DNA from: Chiridota heheva
Taxonomy: Eukaryota; Echinodermata; Holothuroidea; Apodida; Chiridotidae
DNA length: 64,000 bases
Assembly (NCBI GenBank): GCA_020152595.1
Contig: JAIGNY010001213.1
Span: 711,501-775,500, forward strand
Direction of reading: 5' to 3'
Below are positions 41 through 58,956 of the stretch, in pieces (the first letter of the stretch is position 1; every line of letters starts with the position of its first letter). Made by a program: the position numbers and the translations under genes. The notes beneath the pieces were generated by a model. That model was not told where the DNA came from, did no database searches, and saw only the letters and a list, made by a program, of their open reading frames with translations.

Positions 41-68
41 CTGGGAAATTTTGAAGCTTCTTCCTCAT
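41..68 (-). CDS. Microexon 16, acidic tail of the visible part (28 nt, phase 1 to 2)
   Basis: The acceptor is ctcacccctcag and the donor gtacaa. It encodes EEEASKFP after a split H, in phase with exon 15. The donor is not the strongest, and the next exon lies outside the window, so its 3' boundary cannot be cross-checked. Confidence 0.5.
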
Positions 69-3000
69 CTGAGGGGTGAGTCATTCTACCTATGCCCTTG
101 ACTATTATGTGCCTTCACTATGCCCTTGACTGTTATCTGCCTTCACTATGCCCTTGGCTATTATGTGCCTTCATGTACAGACAAAAAATAAAATTATTGA
201 AAGAATCCTGAAAAAACATCATCAATTGTTATCAGAGAAAGGGAAATAAACAAATAAGTCTTACGGTCTGGGTCAATATATTCATCATCACAATCCTGTA
301 AAAAAGGAAGACAAAAACAAATCAATACACAATCATTATCAATTATTCCATTATAATCAATTTCCTTCATAATCAATAAACAAATTGATGACAAATTTAC
401 AGCTTACAGAAATTTATTAGGACATTAATTTGTTAGTACTTCTTCAAACATTGCAATATGAAGTTACCAACCTGTCACACTTCAGAAGCCATGACCTAAA
501 TCTAACGTAAAGATCAATCTTAATCATACAATCAGGTTACAGACACCAAGTAGGGCCATGTAAAGTGTACCAGAACCAAAGGATTTGTGGTTCTGATGCT
601 TTTTATTCCATCAGCTGATTGATTTGCAAAATTTGTATCAACTGCCATGCCATTGCATATCATGAAATATTTGTTCAAGATATTTATTCATAAGCCACAC
701 CCACCATACAGATCAATAAAAATTGTTGACAACATTAGCATTTGCACAATAGTTAAAAACATTATCATAGCAAGTATGATGCAAAAAAAGTTGCTCATTT
801 ATCCTATTTCAAGATATTGACAGTAAGCCCCGCCTACTCATTAATATTCATGACATCACTACCACAACATTATAACATAATGTACAGATAATGACCCATC
901 TGTGTACCACATATGGCATAAATACGATATACCATTCATGAGATACAGTATGGTGTTTACATCCTTTAGCACTTTCACATTAAGCCACGCCTACTATGCA
1001 TATTAATGACATCTGTTGATAATATATAAGCATGTACACAATAACCAACAAATTATCATGCCCAATATGACACAATATGGACATTCACTTGCTCATTTAT
1101 CACTTTTTCAAAAATTTCAGTTAGGCCCTGCCCACTTATCAAAATGTATGACATCACCACCAAAAACATTAGGACACATTTGCAGACCATGAGCTATCTA
1201 TGTACCCCACATGACATGAATCCAGTTCATAATTTTTGAAATATCATGTTTACAAGTTATTTGTTTACAAGATCATATTAAGCCCCACCCACTTCACATA
1301 ATAATTATTACTATTATTATACATTTATAGTGCGCTTGATCTTAAAAAAGCTCTAAGCGCATTACATAATAAACACCATATACACTGATCTACCATAAAC
1401 ACTGATCTACCAAAAACCCTGATCTACCATAAAGACTGATCCACCATAAACTCTGATCCACCAAAATCCCTGATCTACCATAAACACTGATCCACCAAAA
1501 CCCTTATCCACCAAAAACCCTGATCCACCATTAACCCTGATCTACCAAAACCCCTGATCCATCAAAAACCCTGATCTACCAACAACCCTGATCTACCATA
1601 AACACTGATCCACCAAAACCCTTATCCACCAAAAACCCTGATCCACCAACAACCCTGATCTATCAAAAACCCTGATCCACCAAAAACCCTGATCTACCAT
1701 AAACACTGATCCATCAAAAACCCTGATCTACCAACAACCCTGATCCACCAACAACCCTGATCTACCAACAACCCTGATCTACCATAAACACTGATCCACC
1801 AAAACCCTGATCCACCAACAACCCTGATCTATCAAAAACCCTGATCCATCAAAAACCCTGATCCATCAAAAACCCTGATCTACCAACAACCCTGATCTAC
1901 CATAAACACTAATCCACCAAAACCCTGATCCACCAACAGCCCTGATCTATCAAAAACCCTGATCCATCAAAAACCCTGATCTACCAACAACCCTGATCTA
2001 CCATAAACACTGATCCACCAAAACCCTTATCCACCAAAAACCCTGATCCACCAACAACCCTGATCTATCAAAAACCCTTATCCACCAAAAACCCTGATCC
2101 ACCATTAACCCTGATCTACCATAAACACTGATCTACCATAAACACTAATTTACCATAAACACTGATCTACCATAAACACTGATCTACCATAAACACTAAT
2201 TTACCATAAACACTGATCTACCATAAACAATGATCTACCATAAACACTGATCTACCATAAACACTGATCTACCGATAAACACTGATCTACCATAAACACT
2301 GATCTACCATAAACACTGATCTACCATAAACAATGATCTACCATGAACAATGATCTACCATAAACACTGATCTACCATAAACACTGATCTACCAACAACC
2401 CTGATCTACCATAAACACTGATCTACCATAAACACTGATCTACCATAAACACTGATCTACCATAAACACTGATCTACCATAAACAATGATCTACCATGAA
2501 CAATGATCCACCCAAACTTTAATCGACCAAAAATCCTGATTTACCAAAAACCCTGCTCCACCAAAAACCCTCATCTACCACATGAATATCTTTCCTTGGG
2601 AGAAATGGTCTGTCAATCATTCACAGTTATTGCACACATCACTTCAGGCACAACTATTTGTATCACTAGTTTGCAAACAAATTTCTCCCACTAAGACACT
2701 TAACACAGATGAGTGATTTCAATCACAAAAGTGCCTTGATTACTCTTCACTGGCTTCTGTAATCTATAAACACAAATAGCCTTAGTTTACTGTGGTTTGC
2801 ATGGGGATGGCAGACAAACAATCATTGTTAGAATGGAAACACAATACACTGAACAGGAAGTCAGGTTGGTAATTGCCATACCTGAGTTTTCAAGATTAAC
2901 TCAGGTGCCGGGTGCGGGTAGGCTTAAAGAGAAACTTTTCGGCATGCCTAAACACTGATCCACCAAAAATCTTGATCCACCAAAATCCCTGATCTACCAT

Positions 3001-6000
3001 AAACACTGATCCACCAAAACCCTAATCCACCAAAAACCCTGATCCATCAAAAACCCTGATCGACCAAAAACCCTGATCCACCAAAAGCCCTGATCCACCC
3101 AAAATCCTGATCCATCAAAAACCCTGATCCACCAAAAATCCTGATCCATCAAAAACCCTGATCCACCAAAAAGCCTGATCCACCAAAAACCCTGATCTAC
3201 CAAAAACTCTGATCCACCAAAGACCCTGATCCACCAAAAATACTGATCCACCAAAAACCTAATCCACCAAAACCACAACCCACCATTTTGCTACCCAAGC
3301 ACCCTGCCTTACCAAGCAAAATCTCTTATCACACCAAAAAATCTAACTGGTATCAAATCCCTCCCCCCAAAAAAAAAAAAATATTTAAAAAAATACAGGC
3401 CATCCAAAACACCAACCCAGCCAACAAGAGATCCCAACCTAGCCACCAAGAGATCCCAACCCAGACTCCAAGAGATCCCAACCCAACCACCAAGAAACCC
3501 CACCCCACAATATTGAACGATTTTTTGAATTCTAGCGGTTACTACTTACTTCTTCGTTGATAAAGGTACCACTTCCAGAACCTTCAAAGCAAGAATAGAA
3601 AAAAAATGTCATGTACCAAAACTGATTGTGCAGCTATCAAACCTTCATGTCTATCAATTCCCCACCCCCTCCTCCCCCCACCCAGCTTAGAGGCTCCAAA
3701 CCCCACACCCAGCCAATGTCAATCTCTTTGTCAAACCATTTCAATGGGCAAAAGAAGGTTCACCTTTCAGGAGGTGGGGGAATGTGCCTCCCAAATAATT
3801 CCTGGTTACAAGCAGAAAATGATACTGGTCAATTTTTTTTATCATCAGGAAATCCCCAAACAGGGAAGGACAGATGTATTCAACAAGGTAAAATCGGCTC
3901 ACATGGAGGTAGGGGCGGCAGAGCCGGGAGTGGGAGATTCATTCCCAAATAATCTTAGGTGAATTGTGATGAAAATGTGCACATAACGAAAATTATTCAA
4001 GCTGATAAATCATTGTTTGCTAATTTTTCAACAATTAGTCCCCCCCCCCAAATTTGGAATGCTCTGCCACCTGTTACAGGAAGTATAAAAAAGTCTCTTT
4101 TCTGCTATACCTGATAATACAAAGTATCTCACCATTTGGCATAACATATTCCTCATCAGAATCCTGAATAAAAAAAAATAAAAAAACATTACCAAATCAA
4201 TTACCTTAAGCTGCTATACCCTTGTGACACTCAAAAGAAACAAAAACCTACAACCAAAACAAGAAGCAGGCCTGTAGCCAGGACTTTTCTCCAAAGCTGC
4301 CGAAATGCCAAAAACATTCTTTTTAAGCCTACCCGCACCCGACACCCGAGTTAATCCTGAAAACTCAGTTATGGCAATTACCAACCCAACATCCTGTTCA
4401 GTATATTGTGTTTGCACACCAAACAATGACTGTTTATCTACCATTCGCATGCACACCACAGTCAAGTAGCCCAAGGTTATTTGTGTGTATAAGATTACAG
4501 AAAGGCAGTGCTGAGTAATCAGGGGACTTTTGTAATTGAAATCACTCATCCGTGTTAAGTGTCTTAGTGGGAAAAATTTGTTTAAAAACTGGTGGTAAAA
4601 TAGTTGAGTATTTTATGCCTGAGGTGATGTGTGCATTAAGCATGAATGATTGACAGACCATTTCTCCTAAGGAAAGGTATTGCTTCATGGAAGGGCCATT
4701 TCTCCTAAGGAAAGATATTACTTCATGGAAGGGCCATTTCTCCTAAGGAAAGATATTGCTTCATGGAAGGGCCATTTCTCCTAAGGAAAGGTATTGCTTC
4801 ATGGAAGGGCCATTTCTCCTAAGGAAAGATATTACTTCATGGAAGGGCCATTTCTCCTAAGGAAAGGTATTGCTTCATGGAAGGGCCATTTCTCCTAAGG
4901 AAAGGTATTGCTTCATGGAAGGGCCATTTCTCCTAAGGAAAGGTATTACTTCATGGAAGGGCCATTTCTCCTAAGGAAAGGTATTGCTTCATGGAAGGGC
5001 CATTTCTCCTAAGGAAAGGTATTACTTCATGGAAGGGCCATTTCTCCTAAGGAAAGGTATTACTTCATGGAAGGGCCATTTCTCCTAAGGAAAGGTATTG
5101 CTTCATGGAAGGGCCATTTCTCCTAAGGAAAGGTATTACTTCATGGAAGGGCCATTTCTCCTAAGGAAAGGTATTACTTCATGGAAGGGCCATTTCTCCT
5201 AAGGAAAGGTATTACTTCATGGAAGGGCCATTTCTCCTAAGGAAAGATATTACTTCATGGAAGGGCCATTTCTCCTAAGGAAAGGTATTACTTCATGGAA
5301 GGGCCATTTCTCCTAAGGAAAGATATTACTTCATGGAAGGGCCATTTCTCCTAAGGAAAGGTATTACTTCATGGAAGGGCCATTTCTCCTAAGGAAAGGT
5401 ATTGCTTCATGGAAGGGCCATTTCTCCTAAGGAAAGGTATTACTTCATGGAAGGGCCATTTCTCCTAAGGAAAGGTATTGCTTCATGGAAGGGCCATTTC
5501 TCCTAAGGAAAGGTATTGCTTCATGGAAGGGCCATTTCTCCTAAGGAAAGGTATTACTTCATGGAAGGGCCATTTCTCCTAAGGAAAGGTATTACTTCAT
5601 GGAAGGGCCATTTCTCCTAAGGAAAGATATTACTTCATGGAAGGGCCATTTCTCCTAAGGAAAGGTATTACTTCATGGAAGGGCCATTTCTCCTAAGGAA
5701 AGGTATTACTTCATGAAAGGGCCATTTCTCCTAAGGAAAGGTATTGCTTCATGGAAGGGCCATTTCTCCTAAGGAAAGGTATTGCTTCATGGAAGGGATT
5801 GCAGGCCCGGGGGACAAACTGAAAATCTGACCCCCTTATCAGAAAATGCTGTTCCAATTGTCAAGCATCATATTTTTGGGCTCTGTTGTTGAAAGCACAT
5901 CCCTTTTCTGATTTTGTTATGATCCAATTCCCCCCGTCTCGGCGAGACTGCTTTTCTCAAAGGGGGCACAAGCACTTCAAGAATGGGCATTTGGGCAGAT

Positions 6001-7515
6001 TCCCCATATTCCCTCAAAAAAAATTCATTTGATTTTACACAAGGGGGAACAGATCTTGGCAAAATTGGGGCCACATGGCAAGGGAACATAAAGGCTGCAC
6101 AGCCCCATGCTGGCTACAGGCCTAATTATGTTTTGAAAACAATGGAATAAAACAAATGCACCAACCACAAAGGATACAATGAGACCTAATATCAGCGTAA
6201 TATATAGAAAATAGTCAAAACAATCACAAAAAGTGGCAAACAAATTGATCAATCCAAATTATCTTATAAAACTAAACTCAAATTTCAAATTGTACTCAGA
6301 ATTCTTTGAAAGCAGAAACATAATTTTTTGAGGATTGGTCTAGAAGTGAAACTGGCTGTATTAGATTTACTCAAAGAATCCTACAAACAAATGCCAGAAT
6401 TGAGGAATTTATGATATCAAAATGTGAGCACTTAAGAAAACACTCTGCTATTAATTTTGTTATGTTAAAGAAGAAGAAAAATGATCTTGATGGAGTTAAA
6501 GAAGTTATAAGTAAACGAATATACATAGGTCTTACAGAAATGCAAGCCTGTGGGTCAAAAATTTCCACTAAGAACTTCTTTGATGTAAAAGATATTCTTC
6601 AAGAAAAGCTCTGAAAGTACTGTGAACATGCAAAGCTTTTCTCCCCATAAGCAATTTTTTTTTATAGAAATCACACAAACAGAAATTATGCCAGGCAAAA
6701 ATTATTTCAAATGCAACCAGGAAGACACACATGTAACCTTATGCTTTTCCCAATATCATGCTGACAAGTGTTAATAACAAGCTAAAAACAATATGCATGA
6801 TGTTCTTATTTAAATTAATAGAATGTTGCATTCAAGATAAAGGAAATCAAATTACATGGTCCACCGTGAATGTACGTAAACTGGAATGGAACCAACTCTG
6901 CTGGCACAACTGCTTTGAAAGCATAGTTGATATGCTAAATAGGAGAAATGCCAGAGTACCCGGAGAAAAAAACCCATGACCCTAGGCAGGTAACAAACCT
7001 GCACACATATGAAGGCACAGTAATGACAGTCAAGAGCTTAAACCATTTGGCTACCCGATGACCCCTAGTTCTATTCATGAGCATACAGGTATATGAAGGA
7101 ATGTTCCGCCGTGACACCAAGTTGCCCCAAATTCAAATACTTGTCCCCACATTAAGGAAACTTTTAGCCCAAGAAACTGTCATCTAAGCCCGCCCCTAAC
7201 TCACATGCTCCAACTTTGCTTATTATCACGTAATAACAAGTAGCATTCTTTTTTTTCTTGAAATAGAGCAAAAGTTTCTCCTGAAATTTGTGATTCTTCT
7301 AAGTTTCTTTCCCAAAACATTTATGACTTATTTATGGCTCTTGGATTGATATAAAGATATTCATTCTTCAAAACATTCAGTATCATTAGGTTTGACTTAT
7401 CGCGTAACAATAAAATAAGTGATATATGAAAAGTATTGAAGAAAAGTGACTATATATAAATATATTTAAATATATATAAATAAATATATATATAGATATA
7501 TATAATATACATATA

Positions 7516-7582
<67 letters not shown>

Positions 7583-50723: not shown

Positions 50724-53700
50724 AAATATAAAAAAAACCTTTTCAACCCTTAAATACCTAAGCCAGTCGTGGCACTCCCGGTTGGACTTACCTTTTCAAA
50801 AAATTGTTTGGGTAGCTTAACAACATGATATAAACGTAATTCTGGTATCACTTAAAAGAGCTCATATAGTTCATTAAAAAAAATGTAACATTTTGATGGG
50901 GGTTATGTTGAAGATTTTTGAGAAAAAATGGATTGAAATGTAGAAAATAAAAAAAATGCACAAAATTTAGTGAAAAAAATAAAACATTTTTAAAAGCTTA
51001 CATGCCATACTTCCAGACCTAGCTTTTGCTTGAAAAGCGTGAACAATTGACAAAGACATCAAAGTATTCAATTCCGGTCGAATTTTGTCGGTCCCTATCA
51101 TCAATATTTTTTGGGCAAAATTTTCATGATTTTTAGCCTTTTTTAGACAAATTTTGAAAAAATAATTTAGTCAGGATCGCAGTACACCTACCCCATGTAT
51201 TTTGAGTTTCTTTACATACTTTCAATTGAAAACAAAACGAGCAACTACCCTCTCTTCCTTCATGCTGTTATTTAGGTATAAAAACAAACCCATGTATTTA
51301 CACATACGTGTTCTAGTGTAGCAGATAGTGACCAAGCCGGCAACGCACGCATCCCGGGTCCGAATACTGGCTGTGTGCGCGGCTTTACTTTTTTTGCAAG
51401 TAATTTTAGAGGTGATTATAAATTGTTCATTTCTATTATTTTGCTTTGAGAAAAAAATAATGACTGGTATCATTGGAAATTTCACAAACAATCTAAATAT
51501 GTAAAAAAAAAACTCCATTTGTGTTATTTACCAAAAAAAATACAAACTAAAAAAAATTGCCTAATTTTGCCTAAATTTGGCAAATTTGGATGTTAATATT
51601 TTCTTTATTTTGACTTTTTTATTGAAAAGTTTATTGTCTTAGCATTCACATAAACCAAACTTGTAGTAATAGGTAACAAAAGCAAAGTTTATCAAAATTA
51701 AAATTAAAATTCTGAGAAAAAAAACTCTGCCAAATTTTTGTCATGTTCTTATACACACTGGGCGTTTAAGGGTTAAATGAAAACATAATTTCTTTCCGTG
51801 ATTCCCATTTTCCCCACGGTTATAAACCACCAGAACTGTAGGTTCTTGCGGGTCTGCATTCCTCTTACAAGGAATGCAAGCCCATGAAATAGTTTATTCA
51901 TCAAGAATATTGAATTACGATTGTGTTCGAAGACTTGTTTAATAATTTCAATTGCACATACAGTACAGTCGGGAATAACCGTACACGCTAAGTGCGGGGC
52001 GTTAGTGCACTTACCACCATGATGAATGGAGCTGCCCAAGCGCAAAATCGCGCTAAACGTGGGTTACCGCGCTAACATCATTGAGCTTGAAGCCCTGCAG
52101 ATTCTATTCACCTGTGACTTAACGCGCTAAAAATCGATACACATTGTATGCATTATGTCAATCAAGATCGTAAGTACCTGTGCTTGGTAAAGGGACTCCT
52201 AACGTTGCACAGTTATAATAATCGGATTATCGGATTAGGCCTGGCAGACTTTTTCTTTAGCAAAATGTTTTAACGCGAGGCCTAGAGGAATTAAAAACTT
52301 TCGTAAAATATTATTTTGTTTTCATTCAGTTTCACGTTGAACTCTGGGATATAAATATTTGTTTAATTCAGTCAGCATCGCAACGTTCAGAATCACAGTA
52401 CACAGGCCCTACTTGCAATGTTCGCTTACGAAATGAGGCAATGTTTTCATTTGCATTGCATTTTTTCGAACGGAATTTCAATTAAAATACTTATTAAATC
52501 CATTAGGGAAAAAAAATTGATGTGAAAATTGAATCAATCCTTCGATTAAATTTAATTTTTTTACAGTTTTTGGACAAACAAAATGAATTTCGGGCAAACA
52601 AAAACTGATTCTGGCGATGTTTTTTGATTGAATTTAGCTATCCTATCACACAGTCACATTAAAAAGCCTAGCGTTAGGCTACATGGTTTAATCGATGTGT
52701 AATGGTGTTCTGCTTTTGTTATACAATTAGAATTAGGACATAAGAGCTAATATTTCTAAGCTTTGCTGATATTGGTAGGAGGGTTCTGTTAAATATTAAT
52801 GACTAAATATTTCGTTTGATATTTTTCACGGTTATAGATCTACTGTTAGGCCAAATGTTGAGGATGGGAAATGAATAATTTTAAACTGATGTTGACATGT
52901 TTGTCTTATATTTTTTCCACAGCTTCCGAACTTCTGAGCCTTTGTCAGTTTTGCAGATTAGACAAGATACATTGAAAAATCCCTGGGCCAGTATGGATGC
53001 TTATTAATTGCTTTGTCAGTCTAAGTCAACAAGAATTTACAAAAAACTTTTTTTTTTTTCCTCTTTTTTTTGCATGAATAATTATTTTTATAGTAACGTT
53101 TCTACGCCATTCTGTCAGCAATCCAATATCAAGGACATCCGGCTGCAGCCAGTATGAAGAAAAACAGCTACAGCATTTGGCCGTGAAAAAAGAGGCAGAA
53201 GTCAAGAGGGTCTATAAACTCGTGTCGCGTTGAACCTTTCTTTCTTACTATTAGGCCTACTTGATACAGTAAATAAAAAAATTCCTGTGCATGTGTCAAG
53301 TAATGTTGGGCGTAATGAAATGCTGTTACTGCTTTTTTCTTCCACTTGTGTAGAGTACTTTTTTTTTATATTCCAGTTTATGTACAAAACAGAGTGAGTG
53401 ATATTAGAAAAAAGTGTAGGCCTAAATTAAGTAAGCTCAATTGGGTAAAAAAAAGAAGAAGTGAAATTTAGTGCTGTCAAAACTGCACATAAAATAGGTA
53501 AGCCTGCATTGCTTCATCACTTGAGAATTGCAATATCAGGGTGGTAGAAGGCATTGAATATCAGGGCCTCCGACATGGGGAAGGGCATAGCCCCCCTTCC
53601 CGAATAATGTTCCCCCCTTCCCGAATAATGTTCCCCCCTTCCCGAATAATGTTCCCCCCTTCCCGAATAATGTTCCCCCTTTCCGAATAATGTTCCCCCT

Positions 53701-56700
53701 TCCCGAATAATGTTCCCCCTTCCCGAATAATGTTTCCCCCTTCCCGAATAATCTTCCCCCTTCCCGAATAATCTTCCCCTTCCCGAATAATGTTCAAAGC
53801 AATGGTTTTCAAATTGGTCTTGTGTTGATTATAAAAGCAATGGTTTTCAAATTGATCTTGTGTTATTTATCCACAACAAAATTAATTGACAACATTAATC
53901 TTCCCCCCCTTCCCCCTCCTCCGCTCACCTGCCATATGAAACCTGTGTCAGGGGCCCTGAATATTGGTTTGATCATATTTATGTAGATCCTATTTTTAAA
54001 ATATGATACAGGACTTAGGTCTTTGATAGGATTTTCTCCACAGATGACCGATGGTGGTAAAAGGTGAAGCCTGGTCCAATTCATAATTTTAATTTTACCT
54101 GCTTACTTTTTTTTTTTTTAACCAATGTCTTGTTTTTAAAATAATTATATTCCGCAAAGTTATTTTCTGTCGGAACTTACCTCCACTCTTGACTAACTGA
54201 CTTGGTTTTACTTCACTTCATTTCAAATGTTTCAATCGATGCTTCTTTGTGAAGTGGTACGAGAAAATTTAAACGATTATTTTCCCTGCCATTGGGTAAT
54301 ATACAGTACAACATCCCGTCACAGACCTGGTTATAACAGAGTTTACCTCAGCAGGTACAAGTGTTGCTGCCGCATAAGATTTCACATTTTCCAGGAATCA
54401 AAAACAGAAGATTTCCATCATGCCTAATTAAGCATCTTAACATTTTCTTAAAATTTTGGCAGATATATTCTATCATTATTAACTAGCATGCTTGTTCGGC
54501 ATAACAACACATTAAAGGAGGCATAAAGTCTGATACAATCATTATTTCATATGATAGAGAATACAAAATCTTAACCAACTGCCAAAAACATCAGTCAAAT
54601 TCCTATCTCAAGTTATTCATGTTTGAAATCGACACAGGGGGGCTGCCATTTTGTTCAATTCTGTATTGAAATATTGTGCATGATGACATAGATTCCCCAA
54701 TAGGGACATAAAGATTATAATGTAATTCTTTACATATGTGATTAAAGTTTTTTATTTCAAAATGATGTGACACAAAGTTATATCAGCAGGTTTTGATTTT
54801 TCAATTTCATGTATACACAAAATTTTCCTTCACCCTTACAAAATAAAAACACTTGTTCATAAGCTAGAAAACTTGAGGTACATTTGAAAGAAATACAAAG
54901 CATTCCAAGATCCTGCTGGGCCAATGACATAATCTGCATGTTTTGCAATCAAAATGGCAGCTACCATAAAGTAGTAGCATTAAAGTTTTTAACAATTAAA
55001 CAAAAAATATCTTAGATTGCTTCGGGAGTTATGGAACTTGGTCAGAATATTAGTTATTCTCAATTCTATTATATGAAATAAAGAATTATGTCAGACTGTG
55101 CCTCCTTTAACAGTGAAGTCATTTGTGCCAAAAGAGGTTATATATGAATGATTATTGCTTTAGATTGACTAATATTTAACATTATGTCATGTTTTAATCA
55201 GCAAACTATATATTCCAGCTTATAAATACCTCTGCTTTTAAATGCAATCGATGGTGAAACTCATATTGAGTATAGTTCAAAGAAACGACCATTTTTAACA
55301 GCTGTGGTTATGATTCACATCCCTCAGTATGGTTGACATTGGGATTGTGGAAGCAAGTTAAGAACAAATAAACTAATAGTCGTTAAGAACAAATGGGACT
55401 CACCACGAAATACAATCATTATTTCCATAAAATTCCCTGAAGGAAGGGGGGGGGGGGGGGATCCCCTTCCTGCAGTACTTCAATAATGACGTAAGGAATT
55501 GTAAATGAAGGCCCAAGCAGTACTACAATATATTGGTCAGGTTTGTAACCTCCATGACTACTATGGCGACCATGCAACCAAGGACCACTACTACTGCGAC
55601 CCACCAGGGGCCACAGTGGCCTTTAGGGGCAAATCTGTATAATAAAAGTGGTATAGTAGATGCATATAGGTATACGCTAAATAATGCTATATGAAGCAAA
55701 GGATGAGCTTGGCCCCTCCTATAATCTAAGGTCTTTCACGGTCTTGTATATAGTATAGTGTGAAACTTTTTATAGACTATTCAAGTGACTCTCTGGGCTC
55801 TTGACATCTTTCGAAAAAGAAAATATGCTTGTTGGAAGGACCAGGGCCGGGTTATCCATTTATTTATCAATTTTTTGAACGATCTTGCATGTTGCATCCA
55901 TATACAGTATTTAAGATATTACTGTACTTTCTTGCATCCACATACCTTTGTTGCACCTTTATCTTCAGTAGTTACAATATTGACAGTACTATCTTGCCCA
56001 AAATGATTTTTTTTTTTCTTCAAATACTTTTGTGGATTAGCTGATGATTTTGAGGGCCTATTGGAAATTATCAATATTGACAGTACTAGAAATCAATATG
56101 CACAAACCAATTTTAACAAGCCTTGTTTGCCCAATGGTATATGCAGAACATGCAGCTAGCCAAAATGTTGTGTGGAGGTCCGAGGTTCAGATTCATTAGC
56201 TACCTGCCCCACCCCCACATGGTCATCAAGAAGGAAATTTGGACTGACCATGTACTGTAGCAACAACTATTATTTTTTAATTTATAATCTCGGCGAGTGA
56301 ATATCTTTTCAGGTTTTAAACTTATAGTCAGCAGGTCAGGCTTCCAACATTTCCTGAAATCGAATGATCCTGTTCCACAAAAAATATCAACCCCTTGTAT
56401 TCGGATTAACGAAAAAAATAATTTTACCGAAGTTTAGTAACAAATGAAATTATCAAATTTGTTTCTCATGTGCAACTGAAACACAAAAAGCATGCATTAT
56501 AATTCAGTTTACATTCAAATCGCATAATTTCACGAGATATTTTAATTTCTGAAAAATAATAAAAAGTTCTTTTAACTTGCAAGTACAAGCACTGGTTATA
56601 TATATATATAGTTCATTTATTTTATTGAAATGCAGAAGGATTACTTCAAATTCATAAACATACATTGACTAGATCATGGCAGTATGCAAAAGAAGGTGTC

Positions 56701-58956
56701 ATGTAATCACAACTTCCTTGGTAATGAACAAGTTTTTAAATTTGATACACTTGTTATGTCTTCATTATTTTTTTCAAATTCAATAGCTCAATAGTTTCCG
56801 GTCTCCTTTGTAGTTTCACAATACGAACATAACATTTCACTTATATGGATACATTACCTGTAAGGAAAAAACAAGAAGAAAATTGGTTATACTCATGGTG
56901 AAAACTTCTTTTGAGTTTAAAGTAGAAAAGAAAAATGCAAAGCAACATTGTAATTGTGTATAGAAAAATGTTACTAGCAACAAAACAAATAATCTCCATT
57001 AAAAAAAAAAAGGAGAAACAAATATTTCAGTAATTTTGGTTGACAAATACGCCACACATTAAAGCTCCATAGATAGGCTAGGTCTTTCATCATAGCAAAT
57101 GGCCTACACTGAATGACATTTTTGTACGGAAAAATTTTCAGTAAATTCTTGCATTTGCATTTCCAAAAGGGACTGAAATTTACTTAAAATGAATGATTTA
57201 TCTTATTTATACATCTCAATGACAGCAATTACGTTTTTAAAACTATTTTCGATCAAATTTAACCTCTGGGCTGTCTCCCTATGAATTATCACGGTTAGGC
57301 CTAAGATTAGGCCTTTCACTCACTTTTACTATAAGATGGCAACTAGCCTAACATACTGTACGTTCGAACTTTGAAGGAATAAAGAAAAGTCTGGCGAAAT
57401 CGTATAAACGTTAGACTTTTGTCTAATAAATTACAGTCTCAAAGTATGTGAGAAATCTACGCTACACAGAGGTTTTACGGCAGAAATATTTTTGTTTATC
57501 TCGCAAAAGAAGACAAAAAGTTTCGCTTAAATAAATTTAGAAAACATACTCGGGCTTAGTGCAGTGATGCATGTACACAGATTCTGATCACACTCAGTGC
57601 AGTTACGTTACGTAAGCGCTAACAAGCTTAGCGCAATGAGACGTTTACTCCTGTAATACTATTACCGCGCTAACCTCTTTGAGGGAGGAGCAGATTAAAA
57701 TGGGATTATCGGACGCGCTTAGCGCAGAGTTGGGCCAAGTGCCGTCGGTGCATGAAAGACACGAATACAATGGCGGCGGTAAGGGCATTAATCGCGGTAA
57801 ATAATCCGCGCTAACTGCGATATTGGTGCGCTTATTCCCGACTGTACTGTAGCATGCCTCCAAATATTATGAAAAAAGAATTCACTAACCAAATTCACCT
57901 GCACATAGCATGCCTCCAAATATTATGAAAAAAGAATTCACTAACCAAATTCACCTGCACATAGCATGCCTCCAAATATTATGAAAAAAGAATTCACTAA
58001 CCAAATTCGCCTGCACATAGCATGCCTCCAAATATTATGAAAAAAGAATTCACTAACCAAATTCACCTGCACATAGCATGCCTCCAAATATTATGATGTA
58101 AGAATTCACTATCCAAATTTCACCTGCACATAGCGTGCCTCCAAATAATATGAAAAAAGAATTCACTAACCAAATTTCACCTGCACATCCTTCATAAAGA
58201 ATATTGAATTGTGCTATGCATAAGTTTTTATGTTGTAAGAATTTGTATAACAAATTTAAATTTCACATAACACGTACTGCCCCACCTACCATAGCTCAAG
58301 TGGCTACTCCCAAATAGCACCAGACCACACCTGGGTTATACACAGCAAGTGCTTTTCTACCAAGCCAACCAAATTTGGCCTGACACTTGTGTTTGGTCAT
58401 TTCTGGTATTGACGGCTACAAAACTGAAATAATTCCTCATCCAGGTAAATCATGGATTGTCATATTTGCAATATCTCCAGAACTTTCTAGGCGGGTGGGA
58501 CCCTATCCAAAATGGCCGACTGGTGTGACCTCACTGCAGATCTTGTTGGTTGGAGGAAGAGTGCAGTGACCTGCAGGGATTGAAATTGCCAATGTTCTGA
58601 GAACAGAGCTTTCTAAGCCAGAATACCAATTACCATCCCTCCGCCCTGTATTCTTCTAGTAAGCAATGAAAAATGGATCTTGTAAAATGCATGAGCATAA
58701 AAGTACAAACTTACCGATGACCACTCGTCAGACAAACCACCCTGTTCTTCCTCTGAAAAAGAAGAAAGCAGAAAGTCGTCAATTTTACAAATAATTAACG
58801 TCACCAGAAGAATCCCTCTGTTTCCATGTATTACTTTTGAACATACACTGGAAAGATGTACTATTGTTTAGGGCTCAATTGTCCATGACATGGCAGAATC
58901 GAAAAATCAACCTGGAAGCTAGCAACTAAGCATTTTACCTCCACATTCATGGTTTT
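41..58956 (-). CDS. Microexon gene for a YxxP/proline-rich adaptor, SLP-76/BLNK-like (partial, 16 internal exons)
   Basis: Seen: sixteen short blocks on the minus strand, each bounded by AG and GT, keep one open frame across 15 introns with matching phases. In order they end at 58956, 58752, 50119, 49446, 42969, 40955, 31691, 27885, 23539, 18890, 14932, 12704, 4163, 3581, 295 and 68. The roughly 211-residue product is acidic, then proline-rich, then basic, then acidic. It has six YxxP motifs, usually preceded by acidic residues, and three PxxPxR motifs. Known: SLP-76/BLNK/CLNK adaptors have acidic YxxP motifs phosphorylated by Syk/ZAP-70 kinases, then SH3 ligands and a C-terminal SH2 domain, and their genes have many tiny exons. 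Inference: a cytoplasmic tyrosine-kinase scaffold of that family; the SH2 exons would lie beyond position 1 and the N-terminal part beyond 59 kb. A Cas-type YDxP scaffold is the alternative. No start, stop or promoter is visible here. Confidence 0.8.
91..174. repeat. 28-bp tandem repeat, 3 copies
   Basis: Unit is ctatgcccttgact plus attatgtgccttca, in the intron between microexons 15 and 16. Copies differ at a few positions. Confidence 0.8.
265..295 (-). CDS. Microexon 15, YIDP motif (31 nt, phase 0 to 1)
   Basis: The acceptor is ccttttttacag and the donor gtaaga. It encodes [10 protein letters not shown]. It is homologous to exon 13 by length, phase and motif. The acidic residues before Tyr and the P at +3 repeat the kinase-site plus SH2-docking pattern. 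Confidence 0.88.
650..1300. repeat. Dispersed AAGCCCCGCC(C/T)ACT repeat family, block 1
   Basis: Alternating segments recur: aagccMcgccYact followed by tatgcatattaatgacat, then ctatctgtgtaccacat, then a gagata-like and gtttacaag segment. At least five aagcc motifs are seen here (near 693, 825, 994, 1124, 1280). The same family returns at 19.2-20.7 and 22.8-23.0 kb. No coding capacity seen. Confidence 0.65.
1301..1366. repeat. SINE/LINE-tail-like AGCGC hairpin motif
   Basis: An (ATT)n-like stretch is followed by atttatagtgcgctt...aagcgcattacat. The same arrangement is at 60735-60800 and at the 3' end of the L2/CR1 copy near 35940-36010. It is the kind of 3' tail shared by many marine-invertebrate retroelements. 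Confidence 0.45.
1373..2590. repeat. 17-18 bp minisatellite, about 70 copies
   Basis: Two unit types alternate: accctgatccaccaaaa and cataaacactgatctac. The first half mixes them and the second half is mostly the cataaacactgatctac form. It ends at the left arm of the inverted repeat that starts near 2587. Confidence 0.9.
2587..2948 (+). repeat. Left arm of inverted repeat pair
   Basis: This block (starting atctttccttgggagaaatg, ending gcttaaagagaaacttttc) is repeated in inverse orientation at about 4303-4690, at roughly 80 percent identity by eye. The loop of about 1.35 kb holds a minisatellite block and microexons 13 and 14. Likely two copies of one dispersed element. Confidence 0.8.
2949..3290. 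repeat. 17-bp minisatellite, second block, about 20 copies
   Basis: Same accctgatccaccaaaa unit as the array at 1373-2590, resuming just after the left inverted arm. It is followed by a poor 22-bp repeat (agatcccaaccca type, 3 copies, about 3417-3494). Confidence 0.85.
3550..3581 (-). CDS. Microexon 14, Gly/Ser linker (32 nt, phase 1 to 0)
   Basis: The acceptor is a pyrimidine tract ending tttgaag and the donor is the strong gtaagtag. It encodes [10 protein letters not shown] after a split G. Its phase 1 to 0 is exactly what is needed to join exons 13 and 15, which could not be spliced to each other directly without hitting a stop. Confidence 0.72.
4133..4163 (-). CDS. Microexon 13, YVMP motif (31 nt, phase 0 to 1)
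   Basis: A very T-rich acceptor ending attcag and donor gtgaga bound [10 protein letters not shown] plus the first base of Gly. It has the same length and phases as microexon 15 and matches it position by position (D-x-D-D/E-E-Y-x-x-P). An acidic YVMP motif is also present in vertebrate BLNK, as I recall it. Confidence 0.88.
4303..4690 (-). repeat. Right arm of inverted repeat pair
   Basis: Reverse-complement counterpart of 2587-2948. Its outer end, gaccatttctcctaaggaaagg, is also the core of the 38-bp array that follows directly, so the array appears to have grown out of the element's end. Confidence 0.8.
4652..5797. repeat. 38-bp minisatellite, about 30 copies
   Basis: Unit is ggccatttctcctaaggaaa plus ggtattacttcatggaag. 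It is very homogeneous; the only common variants are aggtatt/agatatt and ttac/ttgc. That homogeneity implies recent expansion or conversion. Confidence 0.92.
5798..6300. other. Intron stretch without gene
   Basis: Contains a short GC-richer segment (5800-6120) with gaaaatctgacccccttatc and ccccgtctcggcgagac. I cannot assign it to a family. No splice-bounded coding block supported. Confidence 0.4.
6320..6614 (+). pseudogene. Frameshifted protein fragment of unknown family
   Basis: Two overlapping open stretches on the plus strand read as one degraded protein. The first runs from about 6330 ([20 protein letters not shown]) to a stop near 6411. The second continues in another frame ([20 protein letters not shown] ... 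[20 protein letters not shown]) to a stop at 6614. Composition is protein-like (Lys/Leu/Glu rich). A transposable-element origin is likely but I do not recognise the domain. Confidence 0.4.
6945..7070 (-). mobile_element. tRNA-derived SINE fragment
   Basis: On the minus strand a box A-like TAGCCAAATGG is followed by a box B-like GGTTTGTTACC. Then comes ttttctccgggtactctggc, a tail segment often seen in marine-invertebrate SINEs. No clear target duplication found. Confidence 0.5.
7444..7578. repeat. (TA)n microsatellite
   Basis: Long nearly pure TA run with a few interruptions, in an otherwise plain AT-rich intron stretch (7120-7820). Confidence 0.95.
7826..8700. repeat. 73-bp minisatellite, about 12 copies
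   Basis: Unit is agtcaaaactacaaacataa plus caggttacacagggtgttac plus aatttgacttgctagacata plus gtgtccagaaaga. The first copies have small deletions and the interior ones are nearly identical. Confidence 0.92.
8700..9231. repeat. About 300-bp dispersed unit, two adjacent copies
   Basis: Segments with aagcatcctgttg, then a gtctgcctat-like stretch, caaacactgaaacaag and gtcagagaaac occur at 8818-8950 and 9116-9240. They recur at 12487-12610 beyond the piggyBac-like insertion. Together they form an older tandem family that the element at 10518-12466 split. Confidence 0.6.
9232..10210. repeat. 49-bp minisatellite, about 20 copies
   Basis: Unit is gatcgtagcaagcccaagga plus tgctaataggaatgctggtt plus atttgggaa. 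Copies after about 9950 are more diverged, which suggests the array edge is at the right. Confidence 0.92.
10518..12466. mobile_element. piggyBac-like element, about 1.95 kb, degraded
   Basis: The left end is TTAA then CCCTTACTCTAC at 10514-10529. The right end, read in reverse, is CCATTACTCTAC, followed outward by TTAT (12467-12470), a likely decayed TTAA. Known: piggyBac elements duplicate TTAA and start with CCC/CCY. Sequences outside both ends match one continuous copy of the 300-bp unit at 8.7-8.9 kb, which supports the boundaries. Inside I see no intact transposase, only stop-broken reading from about 11131. Confidence 0.6.
12666..12704 (-). CDS. Microexon 12, basic segment (39 nt, phase 0 to 0)
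   Basis: The acceptor is gtttatgtag and the donor gtaaaa. Of the three frames only phase 0 is open, and it encodes [13 protein letters not shown]. That frame is the one required by exons 11 and 13. The segment could be a polybasic or nuclear-localisation patch. It also contains RVAK and RRVK, which fit the RxxK pattern bound by Gads/Grb2 C-terminal SH3 domains (speculative). Confidence 0.68.
13374..13600. repeat. 25-bp minisatellite, 9 copies
   Basis: Unit is gagtctacacctgctagaag plus ttggt; nearly perfect copies, with one gagcc variant. Confidence 0.95.
13922..14383. repeat. 30/31-bp minisatellite, about 15 copies, two subtypes
   Basis: Unit is agccgcgacacgtccatata plus gcctacaagt in the first half and plus gccgatagatt in the second half. 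Subtypes are blocked rather than mixed, showing local homogenisation. The unit is GC-richer than its surroundings and has two CpG sites. Confidence 0.92.
14384..14865. other. Intron stretch, nothing recognised
   Basis: AT-rich DNA between the 30-bp array and microexon 11. No coding block with splice signals in the required phase. The tail of the array unit occurs once more within 14370-14390. Confidence 0.4.
14866..14932 (-). CDS. Microexon 11, Pro/Ala-rich SH3 ligand (67 nt, phase 2 to 0)
   Basis: The donor is gtaagc. The acceptor ttattaag has a weak pyrimidine tract. Only the phase needed after exon 10 is open; it encodes [20 protein letters not shown] and then DS after a split G. PALPTR fits PxxPxR. 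Base composition is more GC-rich than the surrounding intron, as expected for coding sequence. Confidence 0.72.
15533..18240. repeat. 46-bp minisatellite, about 59 copies
   Basis: Unit is gagcgcagtagcttaaggaa plus gcagggtggtaattatttgc plus ttgcta. Point variants (gtgc/gcgc, ctaaagg/cttaagg) dominate to about 17100. Beyond that many copies carry deletions at two fixed points (ctagag to cagag or ctagg, and gcttaagg to gcaagg). Confidence 0.95.
18862..18890 (-). CDS. Microexon 10, Ser/Pro-rich (29 nt, phase 0 to 2)
   Basis: The acceptor is tattcattgcag and the donor gtaagt. It encodes GNSSFPSPF plus two bases of a Gly codon. Phase 0 to 2 is unusual in this gene, but the following exon has exactly the complementary phase 2 to 0, which supports both. 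Confidence 0.72.
19170..20705. repeat. Dispersed AAGCCCCGCC(C/T)ACT repeat family, block 2
   Basis: Same family as 650-1300, with about six aagcc motifs and the tatctgtgtaccacatatga and gagatatcgtgtttac segments in a fixed order. Period is roughly 300 bp. It is interrupted at 20706 by the insertion that ends near 22763. Confidence 0.65.
20706..22763. mobile_element. 2.06-kb insertion carrying the CCCACATGGCATCCCA array
   Basis: The flanks (ending atgaactagaac, resuming aaaacagacactc) read through as one copy of the dispersed family, so this block is inserted. It has ggttcgcatgc near the left end and gcatgcgaacc at the right end. At the right, ggttcgcat...atgcgaacc can form a 9-bp stem with a 10-nt loop. 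The inside holds the ccacatggcatcccacc array (about 25 bp, 20790-21650 and 21770-21985). A spacer containing gttcatataataact is repeated. No transposase seen; class uncertain. Confidence 0.55.
22764..23040. repeat. Dispersed repeat family, block 3, with CA-rich tail
   Basis: Continuation of the family split by the insertion at 20706-22763: cccgcctactaattaaaatg, ctatctgtaccacat, gagatatcgtgattacaag. It ends in an acacacacac-rich stretch near 22960-22995. Confidence 0.6.
23460..23539 (-). CDS. Microexon 9, YDIP motif and proline-rich SH3 ligand (80 nt, phase 1 to 0)
   Basis: The acceptor is cttaatttgcag and the donor gtatgc. It is the longest exon seen. It encodes [12 protein letters not shown] followed by [18 protein letters not shown] fits the Crk-type SH2 docking motif YDxP, and PPRPAR fits the SH3 consensus PxxPxR. 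Tyrosine docking and SH3 ligand in one exon mark the change from the acidic to the proline-rich part. Confidence 0.88.
23733..23845. repeat. 13-bp repeat, about 8 copies
   Basis: Perfect caccaaatagtat units just upstream (in gene direction) of microexon 9's acceptor side. Confidence 0.95.
24216..24270. repeat. 18-bp repeat, 3 copies
   Basis: Unit tgtgtgtgccctatgggg with a single substitution in the middle copy. Confidence 0.85.
24440..25170. other. Intron stretch, nothing recognised
   Basis: AT-rich. One strong donor-like gtaagtg (minus, near 24700) has no partner acceptor giving an open phase 1-1 block, so I do not call an exon. Confidence 0.4.
25179..25950. repeat. 19-bp minisatellite, about 40 copies
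   Basis: Unit is ccaggttaggtcagctcta. A block of ccgggttagg variants (about 25670-25800) sits in the middle of the more common ccaggttagg copies. Confidence 0.93.
25951..26820. other. Intron stretch, nothing recognised
   Basis: AT-rich unique-looking DNA with no repeat structure and no splice-bounded coding block that fits the gene. Confidence 0.4.
26840..27120 (-). mobile_element. tRNA-derived SINE with conserved core
   Basis: Read on the minus strand, a tRNA-like head (atggctcagtcagtacattc) is followed by a segment complementary to ttaagtgtcttgcaaaaggg and then by cagctgtaaaatgagtacc. This order is typical of deuterostome/marine SINEs. The box B is degenerate. Confidence 0.55.
27130..27850. 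other. AT-rich intron stretch
   Basis: Contains loosely repeated aattaatta and atcacagattta segments (27480-27730) but no clear unit and no coding signal. Confidence 0.4.
27853..27885 (-). CDS. Microexon 8, acidic linker (33 nt, phase 1 to 1)
   Basis: The acceptor is gctctctgcag and the donor gtgaaa. It encodes [10 protein letters not shown] after a split D. It has no tyrosine. It is in phase with both neighbours and has the same 1-1 symmetry as exons 6 and 7, so it may be a relative that lost its YxxP core, or simply an acidic spacer. Confidence 0.7.
28141..29300. repeat. 57-bp minisatellite, about 20 copies, palindromic core
   Basis: Unit is aagaaaacaatatgcctgct plus ttgagtcactcttaagccaa plus taccttaaggtatatat. 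Each unit contains the perfect 14-bp palindrome ataccttaaggtat. Because 57 is a multiple of three and the unit has no stop in several frames, open frames of over 330 codons arise on both strands; I take them as artefacts. Confidence 0.95.
29301..29650. other. Intron stretch, nothing recognised
   Basis: Only a weak duplication of a caatanna-like segment around 29330-29400. Confidence 0.35.
29655..30035. repeat. 49-bp minisatellite, about 8 copies
   Basis: Unit is tattccttatgattcaacat plus ccatacatcataaatacagg plus cactttttc. Confidence 0.93.
30036..31006. other. Intron stretch, nothing recognised
   Basis: Mixed AT-rich DNA. A gacggtgaactgttctactgg-type segment near 30340 and a tatatata stretch near 30810 are the only notable points. 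Confidence 0.4.
31007..31183. repeat. 11-bp minisatellite, about 15 copies
   Basis: Unit is actggaggcat with accgg variants. It lies about 460 bp downstream (gene direction) of microexon 7. Confidence 0.93.
31644..31691 (-). CDS. Microexon 7, second YEVP motif (48 nt, phase 1 to 1)
   Basis: The acceptor is gttaactttcag and the donor gtgaca. It encodes [15 protein letters not shown] after a split E. The core SQEVYEVP matches microexon 6 with several synonymous differences (CAA/CAG-type third positions, GTA against GTC, CCC against CCT). That pattern suggests selection on the protein rather than recent copying. Confidence 0.88.
31692..32203. other. Intron stretch, nothing recognised
   Basis: AT-rich DNA upstream of microexon 7, with no further exon candidate in phase 1-1. 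Confidence 0.4.
32204..32514. repeat. 77-bp tandem repeat, 4 copies
   Basis: Unit starts cttgattatagtattcacta and ends ttactaattaggt. The copies are almost identical, so the amplification is recent. Confidence 0.95.
32862..33022. repeat. 27-bp repeat, 6 copies
   Basis: Unit is caatgtgcattagccttaac plus acagctt; it decays to the right. Confidence 0.92.
33182..33573. repeat. (TA)n followed by (GATA)n microsatellite with GATC patches
   Basis: A TA run at about 33190-33245 precedes about 300 bp of GATA, with an embedded gatcgatcgat patch near 33430-33485. The long open frames here are artefacts of the 4-bp unit. Confidence 0.97.
33670..33901 (+). pseudogene. L2/CR1 non-LTR reverse transcriptase fragment, 5' part
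   Basis: The translation contains [20 protein letters not shown] then [12 protein letters not shown] and [10 protein letters not shown]. After a one-base shift it continues [18 protein letters not shown]. These match the post-catalytic part of L2/CR1 reverse transcriptases (IxxWMxxNxLxLNxxKTExL, then aRNLGVxxDxxLSF). The reading frame is broken. It is inserted antisense to the host gene and continues at 35098 after an insertion. Confidence 0.75.
33902..35097. mobile_element. 1.2-kb terminal-inverted-repeat element inserted in the L2/CR1 copy
   Basis: The left end taaagtagtgacggtta and the right end, read in reverse, taaagttgtgacggtta match at 16 of 17 positions. Flanking 8-mers cttgttgg (33894-33901) and tttgtcgg (35098-35105) are both one step from cttgtcgg, the sequence expected in the retroelement, so they look like a target duplication as in hAT elements. 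A TA duplication is the other reading. No transposase: a non-autonomous element. Confidence 0.7.
35098..36012 (+). pseudogene. L2/CR1 reverse transcriptase fragment, 3' part, with 36-nt internal amplification
   Basis: Translation gives [32 protein letters not shown] and [20 protein letters not shown], the conserved C-terminal part of L2/CR1 reverse transcriptase. The 12-codon piece [12 protein letters not shown] is then repeated about 11 times (35408-35805) before the normal end resumes ([26 protein letters not shown]). It ends with tagcgc...gcgctttacaaat and a short attgaac repeat, as expected for a retroelement 3' end. Frameshifts and stops are present. Confidence 0.8.
36015..36810. other. 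Intron stretch, nothing recognised
   Basis: Cytosine-rich first part (36015-36150), then plain AT-rich DNA. No supported exon. Confidence 0.4.
36815..36935. repeat. 21-bp repeat, about 6 copies
   Basis: Unit is caatttaaaattgacacatgg. Confidence 0.9.
36936..38256. other. Intron stretch, possible decayed coding fragment
   Basis: A broken open stretch on the plus strand near 37170-37350 ([20 protein letters not shown]) looks protein-like but I cannot name it. The rest is AT-rich without repeats. Confidence 0.3.
38257..39412. repeat. 97-bp minisatellite, 12 copies
   Basis: Unit runs from cgcattgtttatttatatat through agttaacatatacaacagct and cagacaaacacaataacaaa to ggggacctatgaaaactag. Copies differ mainly in cata/aaat and gggg/gaag. 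Confidence 0.95.
39890..40160. repeat. About 76-bp repeat, 3 copies
   Basis: Unit contains gcatgcacatcaccagctc, gtgtaggtcaccagctgcaa and tgcacgtcatcagctggcg. It is internally repetitive (caccagct/catcagct). Confidence 0.85.
40509..40835. repeat. 27-bp repeat (4 copies) and related CAGCTGTGCATG copies
   Basis: Perfect units atgcagctgctgtgcatgtc plus atcacct at 40509-40622. Related agcagctgtgcatggttgg copies lie at 40735-40835, about 80 bp from microexon 6's donor. Confidence 0.85.
40911..40955 (-). CDS. Microexon 6, YEVP motif (45 nt, phase 1 to 1)
   Basis: The acceptor is tgtattaacag and the donor gtaaaa. It encodes [14 protein letters not shown] after a split K. It is symmetric (phase 1-1), so it can be skipped or duplicated without breaking the frame. 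It shares the core SQEVYEVP with the next exon, which points to duplication of one ancestral exon. Confidence 0.88.
40960..42920. other. Intron between microexons 5 and 6
   Basis: Nearly repeat-free AT-rich DNA. It holds one strong acceptor directly followed by three bases and a strong donor (41690-41692), described under findings. No longer exon supported. Confidence 0.45.
42927..42969 (-). CDS. Microexon 5, YLEP motif (43 nt, phase 0 to 1)
   Basis: The acceptor is ccttacaacag and the donor gtaaga. It encodes [14 protein letters not shown] and the first base of a Lys codon. Tyr is preceded by D-D-E-F, the acidic context preferred by Syk-family and many Src-family kinases, and followed by x-x-P, the SH2-docking pattern of Crk/Nck/Vav-type partners (family knowledge). 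Confidence 0.88.
43012..43650. repeat. About 41-bp minisatellite, about 15 copies
   Basis: Unit is ttacatgtacatgctgacac plus caattacagcaaattaaagg. Some copies carry an extra acatgt step. Confidence 0.93.
43872..48045. repeat. 51-bp minisatellite, about 82 copies, with higher-order duplication
   Basis: Unit is gagtggtagaatgttccaat plus tgtatggatgaatgatgtaa plus agagtcttaga. Length variants of 47-48 bp (gtaaagtcttggagag) occur. The same series of rare variants appears at about 44.16-44.75 and 45.22-45.85 kb, showing that a block of about 1.1 kb was duplicated. Open frames up to 385 codons here are artefacts. Confidence 0.95.
48105..48636. repeat. 36-bp minisatellite, about 15 copies
   Basis: Unit is ggatggcctaccgtaaagga plus aacattgatacacaaa. 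It starts about 60 bp after the 51-bp array. The 12-codon open frame on both strands is an artefact of the unit length. Confidence 0.95.
48722..48785 (-). mobile_element. tRNA-derived SINE head or tRNA pseudogene
   Basis: On the minus strand cagttggcagagcacacggc fits the D-arm/box A region, and ctgggttcaaccctcgg fits a T-arm with box B ggttcaaccc. The anticodon arm is one base short and no acceptor stem closes, so not a functional tRNA. Confidence 0.6.
48786..49400. other. Intron stretch, probably body of the SINE-like element, then unknown
   Basis: GC slightly higher than average to about 49180. No repeat unit and no coding block in phase. Confidence 0.35.
49415..49446 (-). CDS. Microexon 4 with tandem acceptors (32 or 23 nt, phase 1 to 0)
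   Basis: The donor is the strong gtaagtaa. Two acceptors lie 9 nt apart, at 49446 (aatcag) and 49437 (ctgcag). A long pyrimidine tract precedes the distal one. Both give an open frame: the long form encodes [10 protein letters not shown] after the split Gly and the short form RGHIPPD. The upstream acceptor is the default choice here because it is nearest to the pyrimidine tract. Confidence 0.75.
49450..50070. other. Intron between microexons 3 and 4
   Basis: About 630 bp of unique AT-rich DNA with two related segments around agcacagaactaattatct (49556) and its partial inverse near 49890-49910. No exon seen. Confidence 0.4.
50080..50119 (-). CDS. Microexon 3, Glu run plus SH3 ligand (40 nt, phase 0 to 1)
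   Basis: The acceptor is tttctatttcag and the donor gtgggt. It encodes [13 protein letters not shown] and then the first base of a Gly codon. PQKPTR fits the class II SH3 consensus PxxPxR. The upstream (GAA)n run is also the kind of purine-rich stretch that can act as a splicing enhancer, which would help definition of such a short exon (inference). Confidence 0.85.
50693..50721. repeat. (TA)n microsatellite
   Basis: Short pure TA run just left of the piggyBac-like element. Confidence 0.9.
50747..51772. mobile_element. piggyBac-like non-autonomous element, 1.0 kb
   Basis: Starts CCCTTAAATACC after TCAA and ends, in reverse, CCCTTAAACGCC before TTAA. The first ten bases of the ends agree, and the TCAA/TTAA pair would be a target duplication with one mutation. 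No open transposase frame. A tRNA-like segment (51314-51370) lies inside. Confidence 0.5.
51314..51370 (+). mobile_element. tRNA-like segment, probably SINE-derived
   Basis: Contains gtagcagatagtgaccaag and a box B-like gggtccgaatac. GC content rises sharply compared with both sides. It cannot be folded into a full cloverleaf by eye. Confidence 0.35.
53590..53800. repeat. 20-21 bp minisatellite, about 10 copies
   Basis: Unit is cccccttcccgaataatgtt with variable cytosine-run length. It lies inside the 5.9-kb element. Confidence 0.93.
54516..55106. mobile_element. Kolobok-like MITE, 591 bp, nested in the TA element
   Basis: Bounded by perfect TTAA duplications (54512-54515 and 55107-55110). 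Ends are AGGAGGCA...GTCTGA in inverted orientation with a two-base gap. TTAA plus an AGG start fits Kolobok better than piggyBac, which starts CCC/CCY. No coding capacity. Confidence 0.65.
57850..58190. repeat. 56-bp minisatellite, 6 copies
   Basis: Unit is tagcatgcctccaaatatta plus tgaaaaaagaattcactaac plus caaattcacctgcaca. It abuts the right end of the 5.9-kb element, and a diverged partial unit (aatttcaattgcacata) lies at its left end, so the element inserted into this array. Confidence 0.93.
58195..58714. other. Intron stretch before microexon 2's donor
   Basis: Contains a weak tRNA-like segment (58290-58360) and otherwise nothing recognised. Confidence 0.35.
58715..58752 (-). CDS. Microexon 2, acidic/tryptophan segment (38 nt, phase 1 to 0)
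   Basis: The acceptor is ctttttcag and the donor is the strong gtaagt. The block encodes [12 protein letters not shown] after a split E codon. The acidic-then-SDEW pattern resembles the region just before the first YxxP motif in vertebrate BLNK, which I know to contain an acidic run with a nearby W-S-D. The intron that follows is 8.6 kb and holds the 5.9-kb TA-target transposon. Confidence 0.85.
58939..58956 (-). CDS. Microexon 1 of those seen (18 nt, phase 1 to 1)
   Basis: An 18-nt block lies between a T-rich acceptor (tttttttccag) and the donor gtaaaa. Read in the phase needed by the next exon it gives N-H-E-C-G. Joining it to the next block adds E at the junction and makes an acidic run. 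It is the most upstream exon I can support. An equally open phase-0 reading (KTMNVE) exists but would not join in frame. Confidence 0.6.

Follow-up and report, generated by a model that had tools for sequence, protein, structure and literature searches.

The minus strand of the window, the whole stretch of 64,000 nucleotides that was analysed (C1207:711501-775500 in the 1.1-Gb assembly of Chiridota heheva, which has 3744 contigs), very probably encodes the acidic, tyrosine-motif half of a cytosolic adaptor of the SLP-76/BLNK family. This assignment, made from the DNA sequence, is supported by a complete SH2 domain downstream on the same strand, which among PDB chains matches B-cell linker protein best. 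The original prediction had already read the window as coding for an SLP-76/BLNK-type adaptor, and that reading is upheld by the SH2. The family membership is ordinary and the gene layout is unusual. The family itself is known, including a published BLNK-like protein of a sea star; what is new is this member with its striking exon layout. Besides the window, 100 kb were examined on either side of it. Negative coordinates are counted from window position 0 toward lower contig coordinates.

The predicted exon chain in the window

Between 58752 and 265 on the minus strand, fourteen splice-bounded blocks can be joined into a single open frame. They were picked by splice-site scores and open frames, and phase itself was a selection criterion. 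Phases are written as entry > exit, and the two numbers that close each bracket below are the acceptor and donor scores. The first exon, 58752-58715, has an acidic start (38 nt, 1>0, 12 aa; 9.6 and 4.8); with the alternative acceptor at 58750, scored 4.8, it has 36 nt and phases 0>0. It is followed by 50119-50080 (40 nt, 0>1, 13 aa; 5.6 and 7.6) and 49446-49415 (32 nt, 1>0, 11 aa; 3.2 and 3.2). The first acidic YxxP is found in 42969-42927 (43 nt, 0>1, 14 aa; 1.6 and 0.3, both weak), for which the chain search described below prefers a later donor. The second and third YxxP are in 40955-40911 (45 nt, 1>1, 14 aa; 2.0 and 1.4) and 31691-31644 (48 nt, 1>1, 15 aa; 2.5 and 2.7). Next to them is 27885-27853 (33 nt, 1>1, 10 aa; 6.0 and 2.1), which is open in a single frame. 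The fourth YxxP is seen together with PxxP in 23539-23460 (80 nt, 1>0, 26 aa; 6.0 and 2.2).

The exon 18890-18862 (29 nt, 0>2; 3.0 and 4.7) encodes GNSSFPSPF, and 15007-14866 (142 nt, 2>0; 0.7 and 0.0, both weak) encodes 47 aa, basic and proline-rich, in 47 open codons with a coding score of 11.4. A rare pair of phases, 0>2 followed by 2>0, had been predicted for the window. The pair stands, but its 2>0 member is probably this whole 142-nt exon and not a piece of it of roughly 31 nt. The next exon, 12704-12666 (39 nt, 0>0, 13 aa; 0.4 and 1.4), is tentative. The last three are 4163-4133 with the fifth YxxP (31 nt, 0>1, 10 aa; 7.6 and 4.7), 3581-3550 (32 nt, 1>0, 11 aa; 5.2 and 3.4) and 295-265 with the sixth YxxP (31 nt, 0>1, 10 aa; 11.1 and 0.3), which is in phase with a 507-nt exon 14.3 kb past position 1. 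The splice sites are uneven: strong, for example, at 4163-4133, at 50119-50080 and at the acceptor of 295, and weak at 42969-42927, 15007-14866 and 12704-12666.

The original prediction came without a list of blocks, and the list was rebuilt here to its description: 16 phase-matched blocks of 18-80 nt that run from 58956 down to 41 and include one 0>2/2>0 pair. Which blocks were meant is thus this analysis's own identification. Thirteen of the 16 fit the present chain (12704-12666 tentatively), and the 2>0 block is retained at its new size. The two outermost blocks fare less well. The first, 58956-58939 on the minus strand, encodes KTMNVE and contains ATG (acceptor 3.6, donor 1.3, block score 1.0). 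Its sites are weak, and it may or may not be an exon; blocks upstream score like it or above it. The last, 68-41 on the minus strand (28 nt, 1>2; acceptor 1.0, donor -0.1), probably does not belong to the main transcript. It exits in phase 2, while the 507-nt exon downstream enters in phase 1, the exit phase of 295-265; the two therefore do not fit together. Seven 2>1 candidates, of the kind needed to rescue it, are listed and are unconvincing. Another minus-strand block, 55436-55404 (33 nt), has a very strong pair of splice sites, with scores of 13.4 for the acceptor and 6.3 for the donor. It is excluded as an exon of the gene since the chain needs phase 0 there, and in phase 0 it is closed. 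It may act as a decoy, serve as an alternative exon or belong to something else.

Short blocks readily have an open frame, and 4 of the 19 exons of the whole chain, which continues downstream, are open in all three frames. The window could therefore be read as chance AG...GT pieces strung together in AT-rich, repeat-laden DNA. The chain search, which uses splice sites, general codon preference and phase and nothing else, bears on this reading. The highest score of a phase-consistent chain is 150.7 for the minus strand and 55.3 for the plus strand, and 300 dinucleotide shuffles of the non-repeat sequence give a mean of 35.5 (sd 10.8) with a maximum of 68.1. Splice-bounded blocks with an acidic YxxP number six on the minus strand and zero on the plus strand, while the shuffles give a mean of 0.1 and a maximum of 2 (in 2 of the 300). 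The best chain has 27 blocks: 12 of the model exons (the first of them starting from its alternative acceptor 58750), one match at the acceptor only (42969) and 14 others, including block 58956. It passes over block 68-41. The 14 extra blocks count in favour of chance, and with them the search serves as a test and not as a gene model. It also misses 12704-12666. When letters are shuffled inside the exons, the frame stays open in 0 of 20,000 tries (for the window part and for the whole chain), a figure that is illustrative because the exons had been chosen for openness and phase. The presence of the predicted SH2 on the same strand already contradicts chance. Together with the chain score and the YxxP blocks, it makes an origin of the window chain by chance extremely improbable.

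The SH2 domain and the predicted downstream exons

The SH2 domain is complete and lies 28-33 kb past position 1, on the strand of the window gene. It is split over three exons with matching phase 0: -28060 to -28143 (84 nt), -31863 to -32012 (150 nt) and the exon from -33081 (105 nt), which has 34 codons and then the stop. An SH2 had been proposed as a check on the adaptor reading. It is there on the same strand as proposed, but begins 28 kb beyond position 1 and not just beyond it. The domain matches Pfam SH2 at 3e-14 over profile positions 1-77 of 77. Among the best 60 of 166 PDB matches, B-cell linker protein ranks first (2eo6; 8.1e-17, 64.7 bits), ahead of PLC-gamma1 (2.8e-10, 43.7 bits) and SYK (40.4 bits). 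Identities to reconstructed human sequences are 41/111 for CLNK, 36/102 for SLP-76 and 34/96 for BLNK. Such values, about 35-37%, would be expected for a relative that split off before CLNK, SLP-76 and BLNK diverged.

Two exons link the window to the SH2, both on the minus strand. The 507-nt exon, -14334 to -14840, enters in phase 1 and is proline-rich with LPPKP stretches. The 59-nt exon, -23990 to -24048, is tentative, and 10 of its bases are inside a tandem repeat. Phase was also used to choose these two exons. The resulting chain of 19 exons has matching phases at every junction and reads without interruption from 58752 to the stop of the exon that begins at -33081. The predicted exons extend over 92 kb.

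The introns of this chain reach 14.6 kb and the bridging exon -23990 to -24048 is tentative, which would also suit two neighbouring genes, the first holding the YxxP and proline-rich parts in the window and the second, farther downstream, encoding the SH2. That arrangement is very unlikely: the parts lie on one strand in matching phase with no internal stop, and they are the parts expected for the family. Moreover, a same-strand SH2 within 33 kb would occur by chance roughly 1 time in 1000, as estimated from at least 53 SH2 matches in a genome-wide search of 1.1 Gb. The split SH2 of this gene is not among the matches listed in that search.

A docking protein of the Cas family (p130Cas/NEDD9/EFS) with a YxxP substrate domain has a similarly small chance of being correct. 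YEVP and YDIP of the predicted protein are Cas-like too. However, Cas proteins have an N-terminal SH3 and are not known to have an SH2, while this gene ends in an SH2, in frame downstream, with B-cell linker protein as the best PDB match. No SH3 domain is found in the scanned stretches (54.1-64 kb, most of the first 20 kb upstream and the 229-aa window part), which stop short of the 5' end. The SLP-76/BLNK family remains the preferred assignment; as far as sequence can tell, it is mainly carried by the SH2, together with which parts occur and in what order.

Parts of the predicted protein and known relatives

The order of the parts is acidic, proline-rich, acidic again, proline-rich, SH2 and stop. 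The acidic region, known from sequence, contains six YxxP motifs with acidic surroundings, whose tyrosines are candidate phosphorylation sites. They form two clusters, and each YxxP is in its own exon. PxxP-rich stretches, which are putative SH3 ligands, are seen in window exons and in the 507-nt exon, so that a central proline-rich region is present. The C-terminal SH2 is very probably of the SLP-76/BLNK/CLNK kind (Pfam and PDB match) and is followed by the stop codon. Points against the assignment are that the part order differs from that of published SLP-76, that the part before the SH2 resembles the human members only weakly and has neither a Pfam match nor a meaningful PDB match, that the contig has no SAM_2 match, that several window splice sites are weak and that two exons, 12704-12666 and -23990 to -24048, are tentative.

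Comparison of the joined translation with SLP-76, BLNK and CLNK, as the original prediction had proposed, bears out the relationship for the SH2 only; the part before it is only weakly similar to the human proteins. The 229-aa window part has no Pfam match, and the 415-aa part before the SH2 has no meaningful PDB match (best E 0.74). For the 229-aa part (including block 68-41) compared with reconstructed human sequences, the score is reached by 8 of 500 shuffles for SLP-76, 9 of 500 for BLNK and 290 of 500 for CLNK. For the longer part before the SH2, region-preserving shuffles reach the score in 5 of 300 cases for SLP-76, 33 of 300 for BLNK and 111 of 300 for CLNK (human sequences again reconstructed). 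A direct tblastn search of the window with whole reconstructed SLP-76, BLNK and CLNK gives mainly repeat-driven matches; the exons are too short for it.

The protein resembles vertebrate BLNK/SLP-65 in its SH2, for which this is the best PDB match, in its acidic YxxP cluster including a YVMP motif, as in human BLNK, and in its proline-rich parts. It differs in the part before the SH2, which is only weakly alike. The Gads-type RxxK motif of SLP-76/BLNK/CLNK adaptors is RSTKP. RSTKP is absent from the joined protein, and its two RxxK are both in a 10-aa basic stretch of the tentative exon 12704-12666. SLP-76 also has an N-terminal SAM domain. Pfam finds no SAM on the minus strand in 54.1-64 kb, nor over most of the adjoining 20 kb upstream. 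None of the 47 genome-wide SAM_2 matches is on the contig of the gene, and the upstream stretch contains 5,000 N. A reconstructed SAM sequence of SLP-76 has only weak matches in the 264 kb of window and flanks, and the best one (E 0.21) is downstream.

In SLP-76, the acidic N-terminal domain is described as having three tyrosines that ZAP-70 phosphorylates and to which Vav, Nck and Itk then attach through their SH2 domains; the proline-rich centre binds PLC-gamma1 and GADS, and the C-terminal SH2 binds HPK1 and ADAP (PMC6603179). The present protein shares with this description the acidic tyrosine region, the proline-rich region and the C-terminal SH2. Unlike SLP-76 so described, it has six YxxP in two clusters in place of three tyrosines in the acidic domain. 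As far as the gene was followed, it also differs from SLP-76 and CLNK in that RSTKP is absent and that no SAM is found, and the N-terminal part of CLNK is described as basic (PMC6603179).

If the protein works as other members of the family do, engagement of a receptor would lead a Syk- or Src-type kinase to phosphorylate the YxxP tyrosines. The phosphorylated motifs could then recruit proteins with SH2 domains (Vav, Nck or PLC-gamma, for instance), SH3 partners would be held by the proline-rich part, and the SH2 would tether the complex to another tyrosine-phosphorylated protein. As reported, sequenced invertebrates have a single Vav gene, with one choanoflagellate as the exception (PMC6562523).

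A literature search on BLNK/SLP-76 in sea urchin, amphioxus, invertebrates and echinoderms gives only one directly relevant paper, on the sea star Patiria miniata (PMC11593052). It describes a SAM/Pro-rich/SH2 protein annotated as B-cell linker protein-like or extensin-like (XP_038070561, XP_038070565). The SH2 region of the transcript was amplified from eggs and confirmed by RT-PCR, and an apparent assembly error had split the transcript over two frames (PMC11593052). Since this sea-star protein is already published, an SLP-76/BLNK-type adaptor outside vertebrates is less surprising than the original prediction implied. Both echinoderm proteins have a proline-rich middle and a C-terminal SH2 outside vertebrates. 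Set against the published description, the difference is the N-terminal SAM of the sea-star protein, which is not found in the Chiridota heheva scans.

Exon layout and genomic surroundings

The description of the gene as made almost entirely of microexons was overstated. Exons of 51 nt or shorter are 12 of 14 in the window and 12 of 19 in the whole chain, in which the larger ones have 80, 142, 507, 59, 84, 150 and 105 nt. Strictly defined, microexons are usually those of at most 27 nt, and none of the 19 exons is that short. The tiny exons, of about 30-48 nt, mark the acidic, tyrosine-docking half and not the whole gene, given one 142-nt exon in the window and one of 507 nt downstream. Vertebrate LCP2 (SLP-76) and BLNK genes have many small exons too. 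A literature search on exon sizes and small-exon structure of BLNK/LCP2 genes has no apt paper among the matches listed. The micro-exon genes of schistosomes are described as having exons of up to 81 bp, mostly multiples of three, and as encoding secreted proteins (PMC10526429). Many very short exons with long introns between them are common to both. Unlike the published schistosome genes, only 4 of the 14 window exons have a length that is a multiple of three, and the product has an SH2. The schistosome genes are a different kind of gene.

Some of the tiny exons are similar to one another. QEVYEVP is encoded by both 40955-40911 and 31691-31644, whose DNA aligns over 23 columns with a score of 34, against 20 and 19 for the flanks. 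Between 4163-4133 and 295-265 the likeness extends over 21 bases and scores 27; their flanks come close, with 22 and 19. The other four of the six exon pairs compared show no likeness above the flanks. From these sequences, exon duplication can fairly be inferred for the pair 40955-40911 and 31691-31644 only.

The three neighbouring 1>1 exons (45, 48 and 33 nt) could be cassettes, and 50119 + 49446 and 4163 + 3581 form two 0>1>0 pairs. With these cassettes and pairs, skipping could alter the number of YxxP motifs without a frame shift. It can be speculated, although this is rather doubtful, that the tiny exons are a splice-tunable docking array in which exon skipping varies both the number and the kind of the phosphotyrosine motifs, so that one ancestral gene would have several wirings where vertebrates have three genes. 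Two predicted BLNK-like proteins of Patiria miniata differ by a 38-residue segment (PMC11593052). Differences in whole segments are thus found among genes of this kind, although the published proteins do not reveal how they arise. If the cassettes are alternatively spliced, the gene would be a simple system for relating the number of docking motifs to adaptor signalling before the vertebrate family expansion.

Upstream of the window there are exon-like blocks, among them one of 41 nt at 85776-85736 in window coordinates. Its phases are 2>1, which would fit before 58752, and it is possibly an upstream exon of the gene. A death-effector-domain match in the same direction, at about 73090-72866 (E 0.0014), is rejected; it is merely a tandem repeat read in one frame.

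Tandem repeats occupy 105,479 of the 259,000 known bases (40.7%) of C1207:611501-875500, which includes the whole window. Array rows with a period of 9 or more and a length of at least 200 bp number 129 in this stretch (rows can overlap). The 14 window exons are all free of tandem repeats, whereas 14 of the chain's 18 introns contain an array of at least 100 bp with a period of 9 or more. The gene adds a well-defined SLP-76/BLNK-type adaptor from a genome stretch rich in tandem repeats. Genes of this kind are easily overlooked: the acidic half is without a Pfam match, and the split SH2 escapes the genome-wide matches listed.

Rfam (at the gathering threshold) and tRNA scans of the window are empty, and Pfam on 10 of the 27 window ORFs gives three sub-threshold matches, none of them credible. 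Opposite the gene, two adjacent plus-strand blocks, 3686-3773 and 3849-3958, have strong splice-like sites and matching phase, with scores of 14.1 and 16.7. The plus-strand ORF that covers them, 3564-3962, has no Pfam match. A COX1 search of the whole assembly scored one candidate and none at E 0.001 or better, and the mitochondrial genome seems to be absent from the assembly. On two other contigs there are SH2-coding frames that, by eye, resemble ABL and SHP2, so that this genome seems to have the ordinary genes of tyrosine-kinase signalling.
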